Positions 3 through 24,483 of a DNA stretch of 24,671 bases are shown piece by piece. How positions within the stretch are numbered: the stretch's first letter is position 1; each line of letters starts with the position of its first letter. The notes under the pieces were generated by a model, which saw only the letters and a program-made list of their open reading frames with translations, searched no databases and had not been told where the DNA came from. The position numbers were made by a program, and so were the translations under genes. Origin of the DNA: a virus; the IMG/VR virus record IMGVR_UViG_3300020583_000039, positions 1-24,671 of that record, one strand, 5' to 3'.

Positions 3-479
3 GGACGTATAGCAGACTTACCACACGGTACAATGAGCGGCATTGCAATTGAGTTGCTGTTTATGCCGCTTATAAAGAAAACTGATAAAAAAAGATGTTT
101 ATATGGATCGATTATTATAGACATCTGCCAAGCATTGCTGATCCTGAACGGTATGTCTCCAGATATCGAGGTTACACTGGCTTGGCAGAATGCGCTTCCG
201 AGTGACGACCTGCCCTCAGTGCAGAGCGCAATTGCCAAGAAAGAACTTTCGATCAGTAATACAACATTAATGCGTGAATTGGGATATGACCCAGAAGAAG
301 AACTAGAGTTATCACAGACAGAAGATGCAAAATTGCTACAGGGCTTTAATCGTGGAGCAGGCATGCCACCGGTAATGCTTCCTCCTGCTGACCCAGGAAC
401 TAAACCATTACCGGGGCAACTTCCAGCGGCTCCACCTACGAGCGGTAACGGAGGCGGCTCTGTTGATGCAACTCATTAA
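3..479 (+). CDS. Portal protein, C-terminal part (5' end outside window)
   Basis: The reading frame is open to the left edge, so this is the 3' end of a longer gene; the ATG at 33 is internal. The portal is the dodecameric ring at the capsid vertex through which DNA enters and leaves. The visible part reads SGIAIELLFMPLIKKTDKK followed by a hydrophobic helix and an acidic, then Pro/Gly-rich tail, which fits the C-terminal end of the SPP1 gp6-like portal family. The next plus-strand gene encodes a MuF-type minor head protein, the normal neighbour of a portal. The last 44 bases overlap the antisense HNH endonuclease gene, so the final residues (a Gly-rich tail ending in VDATH) may have been altered by that insertion. 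The family call rests on pattern and position, without an alignment. Confidence 0.75.
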   Translation, partial: GRIADLPHGTMSGIAIELLFMPLIKKTDKKRCLYGSIIIDICQALLILNGMSPDIEVTLAWQNALPSDDLPSVQSAIAKKELSISNTTLMRELGYDPEEELELSQTEDAKLLQGFNRGAGMPPVMLPPADPGTKPLPGQLPAAPPTSGNGGGSVDATH

Positions 480-1350
480 CGCGCTCTTTATTGGCCTGTT
501 GCCATTTTTTGATACGAGCACGTCGCGCCTGATAGGCTTCGGGATGAGTCGCTATGTGTTTTTTCTCCCATTGGCGCTTACGCTTGCGGTGGCATTCTTC
601 GCTACAGAACTTTTGAAACGCCACAGGAATAAAAGCTTTGCCACATTCAAGGCATACGCGGTACTTGTTGACCTTGATTGGATACTCAAGTTGCTCAGAA
701 ACTTGAAGGCTTTGATGGCACGATATACACAGGGCAATGAGGTTATCCATGCTGTTATCTTGGCTTACACGAGCAGGGATTTTATGGTGTACATCAAGCC
801 CGCGTCCATTCTCTTGCGGCGTTTTGCCACACATCTGGCAAACCTTATCACGGTCACGAACTGCTTGTGCAATCTTATTCCAACCATCGCCATAGTAGAT
901 ATTGCCACCTCGATAATTCCAATGGTTCTCACCTATGAGCCATTTTCCCATATGCGACCTATCGAGAAAAAACAAATCGGTTTTCTTGTCTCTTTTCATG
1001 CGATGGGGAGGAAGTTCAAACTTTTCTCCACAACCACAAGCACACTCAACCTCAGTATGAGGCTTGCTATTGGCTTTGCTGATTTTGCTCTTAGCTTTTT
1101 CATCGTGATTGCGACCATGAAAAGGATTGTGCTCTCCAGTCTTCGTTGCCTTTTTGCATTCTTCAGATCGGCATGTAACCAGTTTGTCAATTTCGGATTT
1201 TTTAACCTCAAACGGTTGACCACAGATCACGCATGTTTTCTGAACGCGCTTATAGGCATAGTTGCAAGGTTTGGAGCAAAATTTGGTGTGGCGTTTGTCT
1301 GGAGTAGTAACGGATTTACCGCACTGCAAACAGGTGTAAGTATACGGCAT
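436..1350 (-). CDS. HNH homing endonuclease with NUMOD3-like motif and zinc fingers
   Basis: The 304-residue protein has Cys pairs at 7/10 with 25/29 and at 40/43 with 60/65. A NUMOD3-like DNA-binding motif (GEHNPFHGRNHDEKAKSKIS) covers about 72-91, and Cys residues lie at 103/105/107. An HNH nuclease core covers about 165-213: CQMC, the catalytic DVHH, an Asn at 203, and CISCH. Another Cys set lies at 233/236/249/253, before a very basic C-terminus. This is the architecture of free-standing phage homing endonucleases, which cut a related genome and spread by repair. It lies antisense between portal and MuF genes and overlaps the portal stop by 44 bases. The start ATG has an AGAGGAT ribosome site about 8 bases upstream, and an extended -10 promoter lies about 100 bases upstream. 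I infer it is a mobile gene unrelated to head assembly. Confidence 0.88.
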   Translation of the reverse strand: MPYTYTCLQCGKSVTTPDKRHTKFCSKPCNYAYKRVQKTCVICGQPFEVKKSEIDKLVTCRSEECKKATKTGEHNPFHGRNHDEKAKSKISKANSKPHTEVECACGCGEKFELPPHRMKRDKKTDLFFLDRSHMGKWLIGENHWNYRGGNIYYGDGWNKIAQAVRDRDKVCQMCGKTPQENGRGLDVHHKIPARVSQDNSMDNLIALCISCHQSLQVSEQLEYPIKVNKYRVCLECGKAFIPVAFQKFCSEECHRKRKRQWEKKHIATHPEAYQARRARIKKWQQANKERVNELHQQSRLRYRS

Positions 1351-6577: not shown

Positions 6578-6976
6578 ATGAGGCATCACGCTCACCATCC
6601 ACACAAGAACCATACGCGCCATACAGCCCATCACAAGAACGCCAAGCATCATGCAAAGCATAAGGCTCATCATGTTGTGCATCATAATCACGCAGCGCAC
6701 AAGCATCATGTGACTCATCAGAGGAAGCATGTAGCGCGGCGCAAAAGTACACATCACGCAAAGCATGTAGTGAGGCACGCAGCCAAGCATGGAGCAGCGA
6801 GAGCACATGCCAGGCGAGCAACTAGCGCGAGGAAGACGAAATCAACGCTTCACCGCAAAGGAGCCGTTAAGCCAAAGGCGGTTGCATCAAAGCCAATGAA
6901 GATAGCGGCAAAGGTTCATGCGATGCAGAAAATTCAATCGTTTCATGTCCATACGAAAGCAGCGAAGAAATACTAA
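6578..6976 (+). CDS. His/Lys/Arg-rich low-complexity protein, no acidic residues
   Basis: I count 32 His, 22 Lys and 11 Arg in 132 residues, and no Asp or Glu. The first 80 residues are dominated by HH, KHH and AKH runs (for example MRHHAHHPHKNHTRH); the end is Ala/Lys/Arg-rich like a histone tail (ARRATSARKTKSTLHRK). There is no predicted fold. The ATG follows directly after the connector stop, with only a weak GGTAGCGGG upstream, so translation is probably coupled. It sits between the connector and head-closure genes. It could bind DNA or RNA, metal ions, or act as a pH-responsive polycation. I do not know a family. The high GC shuffle of CAT/CAC/AAG codons also creates long antisense reading frames, which I consider artefacts. 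Confidence 0.7.
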   Translation: MRHHAHHPHKNHTRHTAHHKNAKHHAKHKAHHVVHHNHAAHKHHVTHQRKHVARRKSTHHAKHVVRHAAKHGAARAHARRATSARKTKSTLHRKGAVKPKAVASKPMKIAAKVHAMQKIQSFHVHTKAAKKY

Positions 6977-18710: not shown

Positions 18711-21055
18711 CGTCTCTTACAACCTACGGTACTAACACCGCAGCCACAACGGTAACAACTGCCAACACACTTGTAACTGGCACCGGAGCGGCAGGCACAA
18801 CGGTTGGTACTCGTTGTGGTACGAGCGTAACCGGATGGGGCGAACTGCACGCACAAGCCTTTGCTGGCAACTGGCCTGCAAGTGGTGCTATTGGCTCTGC
18901 AAGCGGGAATGGTTGGTTGTTGGATGCGACCACGTTAGAAGGTAACTCTATCCTCGCTGGCAATTGGACGCCAACGCTCAACTTGCGTTACTTCAGTTCC
19001 AATGGCGCTGCAACGGCTGATATTAACGTGCGCGCATTTGTACGCTCATCTGGAGGAACCTACACACAAATTGGCTCTACAATGGTGCTGAGCGCACAAA
19101 CCATCAATAGTACGACTGCTCAGTATACATTCAGCGCCACAAGTTTACCTCTGCAAGCATTCAATGTTGGAGATAAATTATATCTGGATGCATGGCTGCA
19201 TATAACCGCCAATGCCAATACGACCAGCAATGCTCAGATGAATGTCTCGATTGCGTCGAGCAGCACGCAAGGTGTAGCGAATGATATGCAGGTGGTCACT
19301 CCCGGCTATTCTGTTGTCACAACCAATAAGAAAGATATTTCCACGCGCTTTGTGCTGGCCAGTCCGTATCACGATGTCAAAACGCGCTTTAACCTGAGCG
19401 TTAAACAAGTCAAGGATGTGGCTACAAGGCTACGTCTCATGAGTACTAATCAACTCAAAGACGTATCTAGTAGGCTCCGTTTGCGCAGTTACTACGATGG
19501 TCCTGCTCCAATGTTGGTCGTTAGCCGTAACTGTCCTGTTTACGTCAATGACAACAACTCGAACGCTAATCCAGGTACAAACGCCAATGATGGAGACTAT
19601 GGAACGCTCTGGAGAACGCAGGCACTTACCAACATCAGCAATGATGCCTACATTGTTTACGACCTCTCAGGCGTCTCCAGCGCTCAACGTGGTAAAGTGC
19701 TGGTCAACTGGAATAACAACCTGACTGGCGACTATGACTGGACTATCAAGAGCGTTCTCGCTTACAACCAACCAAGCAGTTACACTGTTGATGTCAATGC
19801 GGCTGCTGGTGGCTCGTTACCGTCAAGCGGCTGGGTAACGCTCGTAACCGTAACCGGCAACAACTACAATGGCAGACAGCATCCAATCAACATGACTGGT
19901 TACAATTGGGTGCGCATAAACTGTACTGCTATTAATGGATCACCGTCCAATCTTGGTTGTGCGCTCCAGATGGATGTCCATAACTGTGCCAATGGCGTGC
20001 AGGACGATATTATTTTCTTCGGAGACTCGATTACGCGAGGCGGTCTGAACATCGACAACGGTGGCGGTGCTGGCTCTGTCGCTCAGCAGATCAACGCTCA
20101 AGCGCCTGCTAACTTCCCGGCAGCGCAAGGCGCTGGCATTGGTGGCACTGTCTCAGGCGATTTCGTAACCAATGCATCAACCTGGCTTCCACTCTTTCCA
20201 GGCAGATACGTTACGCTCAACTATGGCACGAACGACGCCAATAATGGAGTAGCCACAGCCACATTCAAGAGCAATATGCAGAGCGCAATCAATAGCGTGA
20301 TCGCTCAGGGATGCATCCCAATCATCCCACATATCCCGTATGGCCTGACAGGTAACATTATTGCGAATGGTCCTGCTATCAACACCGCCATTGACCAGCT
20401 TGTGGCGGCTAATCCGCTCGTGATCGCTGGTCCTGACTTGTGGGCGTACTTCAACGCCAATCAAAGCCTGATCGGTCCTGATAACATCCATCCGACGTCA
20501 GCAGGCTATACGGCGCTCAGGCAATTGTGGGTGAGCAGGCTTCTCGCCACAGTTTATCAAACCTCGCAGTCTGATGTTACTAGCCGCTTTCGCCTAATGA
20601 GCGCCAATCAGTTAAAGGACACGGTTACTCGCTTTAGATTGATGAGCGCTAATCAATTAAAAGATACGGCCACGCGCTTGCGGCTTATGTCTCCCGCTCA
20701 ACCCAAGGACGTAAGCGCACGCTTCAAGCTTGACTCATTCTTTCAAAAAGATGTAGCGACGCGCTTCAATCTGGCAAAGTTTGTTGACATCCAGGCACGT
20801 CTACGGATGATGAGCGCAAGTCAATTCAAGGATGTGCAAGCACGTTTGAGGATCAGGAGCGCAAATCAGTTGCGCGATATCTCCTCCAGGTTTTTTCTTG
20901 GCGGTGCAATCGTGCCGCGTGATGTCTCTACGCGCTTTTGCATCATTCAGCCTGCACAGCCTGGGGACAGTTATATCGATTGGTACACACGTGATGGAAA
21001 TATGGACTGGTACACGAGAGACGGCAACATGGACTGGTACACGAGAGGAGTGTGA
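18707..21055 (+). CDS. Repeat-flanked SGNH/GDSL-type esterase tail protein
   Basis: This 782-residue multidomain protein has an N-terminal jelly-roll-like domain (about 1-205), a first repeat cluster (about 209-265), a discoidin/carbohydrate-binding-like domain (about 268-425), and an SGNH hydrolase domain (about 433-612). FFGDSITRG places the catalytic Ser at 441; GTND gives Asn509/Asp510; PDNIHPTS gives Asp592 and His595. A second repeat cluster (about 622-755) and a terminal DWYTRDGNM repeat follow. SGNH domains remove acyl groups from sugars, so this is probably a receptor-modifying or capsule-deacetylating tailspike. It overlaps the upstream gene by four bases. The family call is from motifs; the substrate is unknown. 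Confidence 0.82.
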   Translation: MTSLTTYGTNTAATTVTTANTLVTGTGAAGTTVGTRCGTSVTGWGELHAQAFAGNWPASGAIGSASGNGWLLDATTLEGNSILAGNWTPTLNLRYFSSNGAATADINVRAFVRSSGGTYTQIGSTMVLSAQTINSTTAQYTFSATSLPLQAFNVGDKLYLDAWLHITANANTTSNAQMNVSIASSSTQGVANDMQVVTPGYSVVTTNKKDISTRFVLASPYHDVKTRFNLSVKQVKDVATRLRLMSTNQLKDVSSRLRLRSYYDGPAPMLVVSRNCPVYVNDNNSNANPGTNANDGDYGTLWRTQALTNISNDAYIVYDLSGVSSAQRGKVLVNWNNNLTGDYDWTIKSVLAYNQPSSYTVDVNAAAGGSLPSSGWVTLVTVTGNNYNGRQHPINMTGYNWVRINCTAINGSPSNLGCALQMDVHNCANGVQDDIIFFGDSITRGGLNIDNGGGAGSVAQQINAQAPANFPAAQGAGIGGTVSGDFVTNASTWLPLFPGRYVTLNYGTNDANNGVATATFKSNMQSAINSVIAQGCIPIIPHIPYGLTGNIIANGPAINTAIDQLVAANPLVIAGPDLWAYFNANQSLIGPDNIHPTSAGYTALRQLWVSRLLATVYQTSQSDVTSRFRLMSANQLKDTVTRFRLMSANQLKDTATRLRLMSPAQPKDVSARFKLDSFFQKDVATRFNLAKFVDIQARLRMMSASQFKDVQARLRIRSANQLRDISSRFFLGGAIVPRDVSTRFCIIQPAQPGDSYIDWYTRDGNMDWYTRDGNMDWYTRGV
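19331..19499 (+). repeat. Tandem ~15-residue protein repeat, first cluster (4 copies)
   Basis: Four degenerate copies of K-D-V-x-T/S-R-hydrophobic-x-L-(M/R)-S, for example KDISTRFVLASPYH, VKDVATRLRLMSTNQL and KDVSSRLRLRS. DNA copies are diverged, so the repeat is maintained at protein level. It lies between the N-terminal domain and the carbohydrate-binding-like domain of the esterase. Confidence 0.75.
20570..20968 (+). repeat. Tandem ~15-residue protein repeat, second cluster (9 copies)
   Basis: Nine copies of the same D-V-x-T-R-F/L-x-L-M-S-A-N-Q-L-K unit follow the SGNH domain, with copies such as DTVTRFRLMSANQLK and DVQARLRIRSANQLR. Spacing is mostly 15 residues, shortened to 12-14 in two units. 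Alternating hydrophobic residues suggest a strand or triple-beta stalk rather than helix. Confidence 0.75.
20978..21046 (+). repeat. 27-bp tandem repeat at the esterase C-terminus
   Basis: Two full copies and one partial copy (20978-21004, 21005-21031, 21032-21046) encode DWYTRDGNM units, ending DWYTRGV. DNA identity between copies is high except at third positions, so expansion looks fairly recent. Confidence 0.75.
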
Positions 21056-21057
21056 TT

Positions 21058-21375
21058 ATGTCATTTACGCCTAGAAGCGTTGGGGATGCTTCGGCTATCC
21101 ACAACACTTTTCATACCGATAGCGGTATTTATCCGCTTGGTAGTTTACTGGCGAGCGCTCTTGCTATGCATTTCATCGACACTGGAAACAGCATACTTCG
21201 GGTTGGCACTGGCACATGGTCCATTACCGATGCTCCAAACGGCAAGGCTGATTATGCGCCTAGTGCGGCTGATGTTGCAACGGCAGGCGCGTTCTCCATC
21301 TATCCGGTGGTCACGCTTACCACTGGACCAAAGGCGTTTGATCCGCAAATTTTAGAGCTTAGATTCTTGCCTTAA
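21058..21375 (+). CDS. Small tail-region protein, unknown
   Basis: I choose the ATG at 21058 (GAGGAG at 21045-21050, 7 bases away) over the GTG at 21052, which overlaps the previous stop. The 105-residue product starts MSFTPRSVGDASAIHN and has several strand-like segments (SILRVGTGTWSITDAP). No recognised family. It is the last gene before the endolysin, and its stop overlaps the endolysin ribosome site. Confidence 0.55.
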   Translation: MSFTPRSVGDASAIHNTFHTDSGIYPLGSLLASALAMHFIDTGNSILRVGTGTWSITDAPNGKADYAPSAADVATAGAFSIYPVVTLTTGPKAFDPQILELRFLP

Positions 21376-21384
21376 GGAGGTTTC

Positions 21385-22404
21385 ATGGCACTACTCGCAT
21401 ACGCAGATATATCCGCGTGGCAACCCGCCAATGTGGATTGGCAAGCATACAAACAGTGGTCAAGCATCGTGGCCATACGCTCATCATACGGCGTTGGCTA
21501 CGAGGATGCACACTATAAAGCCTATCGCTCAGGAGCAGAGGCGGCAGGCTTGCGCATCATCCACTACCACTACGCCTATCCCGGCATTAACTCGGCAGTA
21601 GATGAGGCAAACTGGCAACATAAGACCGTTGGCCCAATTGGTGCGAATGATCTGCTCATGCTTGACTACGAGGAAGGCAACGCACGCGCAAATGCCTCGT
21701 GGGCGCTGGCCTTTCTCACTCAGCAAGAAGCGAACTATGGGGGCAAGTTACCGCTCATCTACGCCAGTGATGGCTATGTGAGGAGTAGGCTACAGGATGC
21801 GCGGCTAGCCAGATATCCGCTTGTCTTGGCTGATTGGCAGTACACGCCTAGCGAGCGGCCTGCTTGTCCTCCACCTTGGCAATCATATATAGCAGTGCAA
21901 TACACCGACAAGCAAACCAACGTGCCAGGCATCGCAGGCGCGATAGACGCGAATGTATGGCTTGGCGATACAGCACAAGGAGATGATATGGCAATCACAA
22001 TCAATTCGCCTGGCGTGGCGAGCTTCTTTGAGGAGGTAGACGCCGCTCATTGGAAGTGCAAGAGTAACGGCAACATCGTACAAGGCGAAATACTCAAGTT
22101 CTACCAGCGCAACAACGGACTGCTGCTCTTTGGGCTTCCCTTATCCAACGAGGTCAGTTTAGACGCTCAGGGCAATGTCAAGCAATATATGGAGCGAGCC
22201 TGCTTGGTTTATAATCCAAGCCATTCTCTGGATAACCCGCCTGGCTCTAGCGACGTCTACACAGCGCACGTCTACTCTGATGGAGCGCTTGGTGAAGACC
22301 CACTTATCCCGAAGCTTGAGGCAACTATCACGCAACTGCAATCACAATCGTCCGATCCAACCGACGCCGCCAAGCTCGCGCAAATCAAGGCGATCGTTGG
22401 CTAA
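21385..22404 (+). CDS. GH25 endolysin (N-acetylmuramidase) with C-terminal wall-associated domain
   Basis: Residues 1-195 match glycoside hydrolase family 25: YADIS with Asp8, the catalytic LDYEEG (Asp94, Glu96), LADWQY (about 152), and DANVW (Asp188). GH25 enzymes cut the MurNAc-GlcNAc bond of peptidoglycan. Residues about 205-310 (FYQRNNGLLLFGLPLSNEV, VKQYMERACLVYNPS) resemble a repeat found in secreted proteins of Chloroflexota, probably for wall or surface binding. The last 30 residues are a helix. No signal peptide is present, so a holin is needed. AAGGAGG is 4 bases before the ATG. An in-frame internal start at 21988 separates the two domains. Confidence 0.9.
   Translation: MALLAYADISAWQPANVDWQAYKQWSSIVAIRSSYGVGYEDAHYKAYRSGAEAAGLRIIHYHYAYPGINSAVDEANWQHKTVGPIGANDLLMLDYEEGNARANASWALAFLTQQEANYGGKLPLIYASDGYVRSRLQDARLARYPLVLADWQYTPSERPACPPPWQSYIAVQYTDKQTNVPGIAGAIDANVWLGDTAQGDDMAITINSPGVASFFEEVDAAHWKCKSNGNIVQGEILKFYQRNNGLLLFGLPLSNEVSLDAQGNVKQYMERACLVYNPSHSLDNPPGSSDVYTAHVYSDGALGEDPLIPKLEATITQLQSQSSDPTDAAKLAQIKAIVG
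21977..22404 (+). promoter_or_regulatory. Internal ribosome site and start for the endolysin C-terminal domain
   Basis: AAGGAG (21977-21982) lies 5 bases before an in-frame ATG (21988, Met202), exactly at the junction between the GH25 domain and the C-terminal domain. A 138-residue product ending at 22404 would be made from it. Known phage endolysins use such internal starts to produce extra wall-binding subunits. That it works here is inferred from the sequence alone. Confidence 0.6.
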
Positions 22405-24032: not shown

Positions 24033-24431
24033 TTACCTTGCACTGCTGTAGATTGTTTGGACTGGCGCTGCATAGCCACAACTCACGGTCACGCAACCAG
24101 GATCAATCCACATGTTTGTTTTCATCGGGAATCGGTGATTTTGCTCCGTGATGCCTGCTTCGTCTGCTGCTGCTTCTAGCATGTCCTTTGGCTCATAATC
24201 ACAGACAAGGTATAAATCCTCATCAGTGGTGCTAAGAGCCTCTAATTTGTCTCTCAGCGCGGCTTTAAACGTCTCGATCTGCTGATCGGTGAGAGGCTGG
24301 ACCGTGATAAAAGATGAGAAGGAGAATAGCGAGAAATCTACTTCCTTATCACCAGTTTGGTTGATTGGTCGTTGTGTGAGTTGGCTTGCCCACCACTCAA
24401 CGGCGGCAGTTATTTCTTGCTCCATGCTCAT
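24033..24431 (-). CDS. Conserved-looking phage protein, unknown function
   Basis: I take the start at 24431 because AAGGAG lies 9 bases upstream; in-frame ATGs at 24437 and 24425 are also possible, and a TTG at 24470 would precede the ribosome site. The 132-residue product has VEWWASQLTQRP near the start, a Glu/Asp-rich middle with LYLVCDYEPKD, and HRFPMKTNMWIDPG and VSCGYAAPVQTIY near the end. The many Trp, Cys and Gly residues in short runs suggest a well-folded globular protein. I do not recognise a family and no catalytic motif is clear. It is part of the minus-strand cluster. Confidence 0.65.
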   Translation of the reverse strand: MSMEQEITAAVEWWASQLTQRPINQTGDKEVDFSLFSFSSFITVQPLTDQQIETFKAALRDKLEALSTTDEDLYLVCDYEPKDMLEAAADEAGITEQNHRFPMKTNMWIDPGCVTVSCGYAAPVQTIYSSAR

Positions 24432-24483
24432 GTTCATCTTCTCCTTGCGAGGTTGACCGTTGCCAGCCAACCTCTACTACTCA

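Follow-up and report, generated by a model that had tools for sequence, protein, structure and literature searches.

Several phage endolysins yield two polypeptides from one gene. In CTP1L, CS74L and CD27L of clostridial phages, the second product and the complex have been shown experimentally; its translation begins at an internal GTG or ATG, preceded in most CTP1L relatives by the Shine-Dalgarno (SD) sequence GGAGG, and the site is kept among relatives (PMC4777826). LysIME-EF1 and Lys170 of enterococcal phages, each encoded by a single gene, use an internal ribosome-binding site (RBS) and start located just before the binding domain, and their second product consists of free binding domains (PMC7098653; PMC9430671). 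The 1:3 complex of LysIME-EF1 has been solved (PMC7098653), and complexes of full-length enzyme with free binding domains have been shown for Lys170 and LysP7951 (PMC9430671). In-frame internal starts are predicted in about half of Gram-positive phage endolysins by a survey that includes GH25 architectures, its sample being isolate phages from Gram-positive hosts rather than uncultivated contigs (PMC9430671). Some proven two-product endolysins form no complex (PMC9430671), and LysP008 and Lysc2 have conserved internal starts but gave no second product upon expression (PMC9371310), a result that counsels caution in inferring a short product elsewhere.

The window analyzed here, a 24,671-nucleotide stretch of viral DNA from IMG/VR (IMGVR_UViG_3300020583_000039), contains an endolysin gene of comparable layout, with the following features:

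21374..21380, plus strand: main SD of the endolysin gene, AAGGAGG; duplex energy -12.5
21385..22404, plus strand, stop included: endolysin gene, 339 residues at full length; open reading frame with a PHROG endolysin match (E 5.7e-34)
21406..21915, plus strand: GH25 muramidase domain, residues 8-177; Pfam PF01183, E 9e-22
21977..21982, plus strand: internal SD, AAGGAG; position conserved in relatives
21988..21990, plus strand: internal in-frame start ATG, Met202; ATG or GTG in 25 of 25 relatives
21988..22404, plus strand, stop included: predicted second product, a 138-residue C-terminal domain; open reading frame and comparative evidence
22018..22272, plus strand: LGFP-like wall-binding fold, residues 11-95 of the short product; profile match to 6swz/6sx4, Foldseek, Z 7.4
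22303..22398, plus strand: C-terminal helices, residues 106-137 of the short product; AlphaFold2 model, pLDDT 63-71

CTP1L offers a close parallel, with an N-terminal glycosyl hydrolase, an internal start in the linker and a separately made C-terminal wall-binding domain; in contrast to the window protein, the binding domains of CTP1L, CS74L and CD27L are, as far as described, not LGFP-like, and their hosts are clostridia (PMC4777826). LysIME-EF1 and Lys170 share with the window the placement of the internal signal, but LysIME-EF1 combines a CHAP catalytic domain with another binding domain (PMC7098653). LysP7951, which forms a proven 1:5 complex, follows the same plan, in which the start separates a single catalytic domain from a single binding domain (PMC9430671). 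On the side of the binding domain, the passages that deal with LGFP repeats in Barnyard's description present them as proposed cell-wall anchors, unusual in endolysins; the endolysin gp39 carries LGFP motifs at its C-terminus, where the window protein has an LGFP-like domain, and its description there mentions no internal start (PMC3314691).

The original prediction placed AAGGAG, a 5-base spacer and an in-frame ATG at the boundary between GH25 and the C-terminal domain, and judged the ribosome site as good as those of true genes. The site is confirmed. The SD occupies 21977-21982, the spacer reads ATGAT, and the ATG at 21988 lies (21988 - 21385)/3 = 201 codons into the gene, i.e., at codon 202 of 339, just beyond the catalytic part: the GH25 match ends at residue 177, and the PHROG match spans residues 7-204. 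Set beside a rough call of 30 gene starts in the window, the internal SD has a duplex energy of -8.5 kcal/mol vs a median of -6.5 and beats 24 of the 30, with -8.5 or stronger found at only 6; the main SD of the endolysin itself is much stronger (-12.5 vs -8.5 kcal/mol). Met202 is the strongest internal in-frame start of its gene and one of only three internal in-frame ATG or GTG codons of this strength in ~5,800 internal codons of window genes. An out-of-frame ATG at 21983, which adjoins the SD, is an unlikely competitor because its frame is only 18 codons long and it has no spacer. The mRNA at the internal start (-8.2 kcal/mol) is not specially open. Taken alone, the window site proves little, since 14% of synonymous shuffles of the gene produce an equally good site within 5 codons of the junction (p = 0.14).

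If one gene decides so little, what do its relatives say? Scans of IMG/VR contigs turned up 25 more distinct genes related in the catalytic domain, the C-terminal domain or both, making 26 with the window gene; L039, as a near-identical copy, and L041 and L042, as distant GH25 genes lacking the module, were left out. Clustering the 26 genes leaves 23 groups at a 70% identity threshold and 18 at a 60% threshold, so they are not one sequence repeated, yet they are not independent. The junction start was picked by eye from a ranked list for each gene, so the strong test lies in how the site ranks rather than in its presence alone. The original prediction had proposed to check whether AAGGAG and the start are conserved in homologs: an in-frame start codon stands at the domain seam in 26/26 genes (15 ATG, 11 GTG), and the SD energy there is -8.5 or better in 24 of them, window included, the weak cases being L009 (-6.0) and L023 (-5.6). 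The seam site ranks first among internal in-frame starts in 24/26 genes. Poor conservation in homologs, which the original prediction had named as a refutation, is therefore not what the relatives show. The rest of these genes holds 7 sites that strong in 7,864 codons, so that ~0.01 strong sites are expected per junction (an 11-codon stretch). The comparison thus lifts the site far above chance: a chance origin, plausible for the window gene taken alone, is ruled out for the family by conservation.

What is kept at the seam is nucleotides rather than linker peptide, because the SD core falls into different codon registers (0 in 11 genes, 2 in 14, 1 in a single gene). Its translation is Gly-Gly (GGA GGA) in some genes and Glu-Glu or Glu-Asp (GAG GAx) in others; the window has Gln-Gly-Asp (CAA GGA GAT). 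Linker residues thus differ among genes while the SD stays. Where the start position encodes Val, the codon is GTG in 11/11 genes, vs 23% GTG at other valines of these genes. The mRNA around the seam starts is less structured than at other internal ATG or GTG codons (mean -5.1 vs -10.2 kcal/mol), a difference that becomes smaller but persists after composition control (p = 0.003). Strong other-frame sites near the junction are few, mostly TTG codons further downstream that use the same SD. Seven isolate GH25 endolysins served as a control, and a strong internal in-frame site is present in only one, the lysin of Streptococcus phage Javan642 (ATG at codon 217, SD energy -9.5), which offers a ready laboratory comparison. 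Kept in 25 relatives despite exchange of the cutting domain or the tail, the internal start signal is very probably a real conserved feature, as judged from sequence comparison.

What would the second product be? A profile search with the window's C-terminal domain leads to the LGFP-repeat C-terminal domain of C. glutamicum mycoloyltransferase A (6swz, 6sx4). The AlphaFold2 model of the domain (mean pLDDT 82.5, good to about residue 90) compares with 6swz at Z 7.4 and an rmsd of 1.9 Å over 60 residues, the next unrelated entry reaching Z 2.9; Foldseek also matches the LGFP domain, with E of only 0.04-0.13. Sequence identity to 6swz/6sx4 is ~15%, the window version being short and diverged, with helices appended. 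An LGFP (PF08310) match is absent when the window protein is compared with Pfam; among the relatives, whose C-terminal domains are 27-42% identical to the window's, PF08310 scores 22.5 bits in L049, 21.8 in L015 and 20.3 in L052 (gathering score, 22 bits). By profile and fold, then, the domain resembles a wall-binding LGFP domain, and its binding role is predicted. Most members of the set end in helices with a heptad periodicity that is significant across the set, not for the window sequence alone; these helices could form an oligomerization tail.

The site itself, its place at the seam, its conservation in relatives and the LGFP-like fold together make it highly likely that one frame encodes two proteins, a full-length enzyme and a free wall-binding domain, which probably form a complex that improves lysis. 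Ribosomes initiating at 21385 would make the 339-residue protein, a GH25 muramidase that ends in the LGFP-like wall-binding domain, and those engaging the internal SD and ATG (21977/21988) would make the 138-residue wall-binding domain alone. The free domains would most likely join the full-length enzyme through contacts of the C-terminal domain and the tail helices, giving a complex of one or a few catalytic domains with several wall-binding domains; the additional binding domains would raise avidity for the cell wall and make lysis more efficient. The original prediction of a separate wall-binding domain, made as in known endolysins, has in this way gained strong support from sequence comparison, while we infer the short protein itself, its assembly with the full-length enzyme and the improved lysis; the complex is suggested by the layout of one catalytic domain, an internal start and one binding domain, as in endolysins with demonstrated complexes. 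Its claim to a new case is not supported beyond a new member of a known mechanism, one that the survey of Gram-positive phages already expects in roughly half of their endolysins (PMC9430671).

The short protein could instead be made and act alone, for example by competing for wall sites or by timing lysis. Isoforms that do not interact have a precedent in LysJavan488 (PMC9430671), and a solitary protein would fit the lack of a significant heptad signal in the window tail. However, in the proven case without interaction the start lies between two catalytic domains, whereas the proven interacting cases are built like the window protein, from one catalytic domain and one for binding (PMC9430671), and helical tails are common in the set; a solitary function is therefore unlikely.

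Domains are exchanged among the relatives, and the seam start is kept across three catalytic kinds and two kinds of C-terminal module. The GH25 genes are those of the window, L002-L004, L008, L009, L017, L019, L030, L036, L038, L040 and L056 (by Pfam in the window, L036, L040 and L056; by alignment in the others). Amidase_2 is found in L015, L025, L027 and L052 by Pfam and in L023, L026 and L054 by resemblance. In the third kind (L010, L011, L012, L016, L024 and L049), an N-terminal domain of ~245 residues sits at the endolysin position; the three members scanned have no Pfam catalytic match, L049 has no PDB match, and the N-terminal part of L012 has only a weak PHROG endolysin match. This domain is possibly an undescribed or very diverged peptidoglycan hydrolase. 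The second C-terminal module (GWTDDG...FRW), which has a long C-terminal helix, occurs in L003, L009, L023, L024, L025, L026, L027 and L040, each time with the same kind of internal start ahead of it. It has no Pfam match, Foldseek returned nothing for it, and its model is poor (pLDDT 64); a relationship to ESAT-6-like helices was dismissed, as the sequence matches are weak and look like helix composition.

Alignments place each of the two modules with all three catalytic kinds. In one swapped pair, L004 (GH25) and L015 (amidase), the DNA is 94% identical through the opening 120 bases of the C-terminal part, and the similarity starts at the SD, upstream of which none is recognizable. From this boundary, the C-terminal module appears to carry its start signal along when it moves; greater divergence in the other swapped pairs leaves them only compatible with such joint movement. 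As a tentative extension, neither favored nor set aside, module, RBS and start may be shuffled as a unit, like a gene nested in another, and may have recombined at the RBS onto at least three catalytic kinds in uncultivated phages; since two different modules in the same phage group keep the arrangement, the second product would then be required, rather than accessory, for lysis in this group.

The same boundary could be read as the scar of an old fusion, with the C-terminal domain once a separate gene whose RBS was carried along when it was fused to catalytic domains and whose start is now unused. L004 and L015 have the most similar C-terminal domains, and their DNA likeness begins at the SD as it would at a fusion seam; moreover, single-gene synonymous p-values are modest given the proteins (0.01-0.7). 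But the SD and the start persist although the C-terminal domains have diverged to 27-42% identity with that of the window, and the combined synonymous test gives p ~1e-4 on a reduced set while the linker residues themselves show no conservation, which makes an unused relic quite improbable. Among the relatives, no gene with catalytic and C-terminal parts separate was found. Ribosome pausing by SD-like stretches at domain borders has also been proposed, and the site does lie exactly between domains in all genes; yet a pause that merely helps the catalytic domain to fold needs no start codon, whereas ATG or GTG stands at initiation spacing in all 26 genes and every Val at that position is GTG, so pausing in place of initiation is very improbable.

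Two polypeptides from one frame remain the preferred reading. As to the host, scans of cellular genome contigs found no relatives and hence no prophage or host, and the original prediction's suggestion of an unusual host phylum finds no support here. Searches of plasmids and isolate phages with the C-terminal domains gave no matches, and the major capsid protein was uninformative, its best listed isolates being <30% identical and spread over several phyla.

The window holds other features that merit mention. A 27-base tandem repeat (20973-21047, plus strand; 2.8 copies) encodes MDWYTRDGN at the C-terminus of a 782-residue protein bearing a GDSL-lipase; in L002, a 720-residue protein upstream of the endolysin ends in a similar degenerate repeat. 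Unexpectedly for a phage, a 145-residue reading frame (24036-24470, minus strand) hits the C-terminal portion of the Pfam family BTG (PF07742; E 5e-8, above cut-off), which is known from eukaryotic anti-proliferative proteins. In the head-tail region, a 132-residue reading frame extremely rich in His, Lys, Arg and Ala (6578-6976, plus strand) abuts the preceding gene base-to-base and has no Pfam match. An HNH endonuclease with a NUMOD3 motif (436-1350, minus strand) lies antisense between two structural genes, like a homing endonuclease.

The mechanism is already known from other phages, and what is new here is further members: two-polypeptide endolysins now extend to a group of uncultivated phages and to binding modules of an LGFP-like type. 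For expression work the site matters, as codon-optimized synthesis of such lysins would silently lose the second product. For the family, this is an unusually clean comparative case, in which the start outlasts changes in catalytic domain, binding domain and linker peptide alike, and it goes somewhat beyond known cases in that the internal start persists within a single phage group despite three catalytic types and two binding modules.
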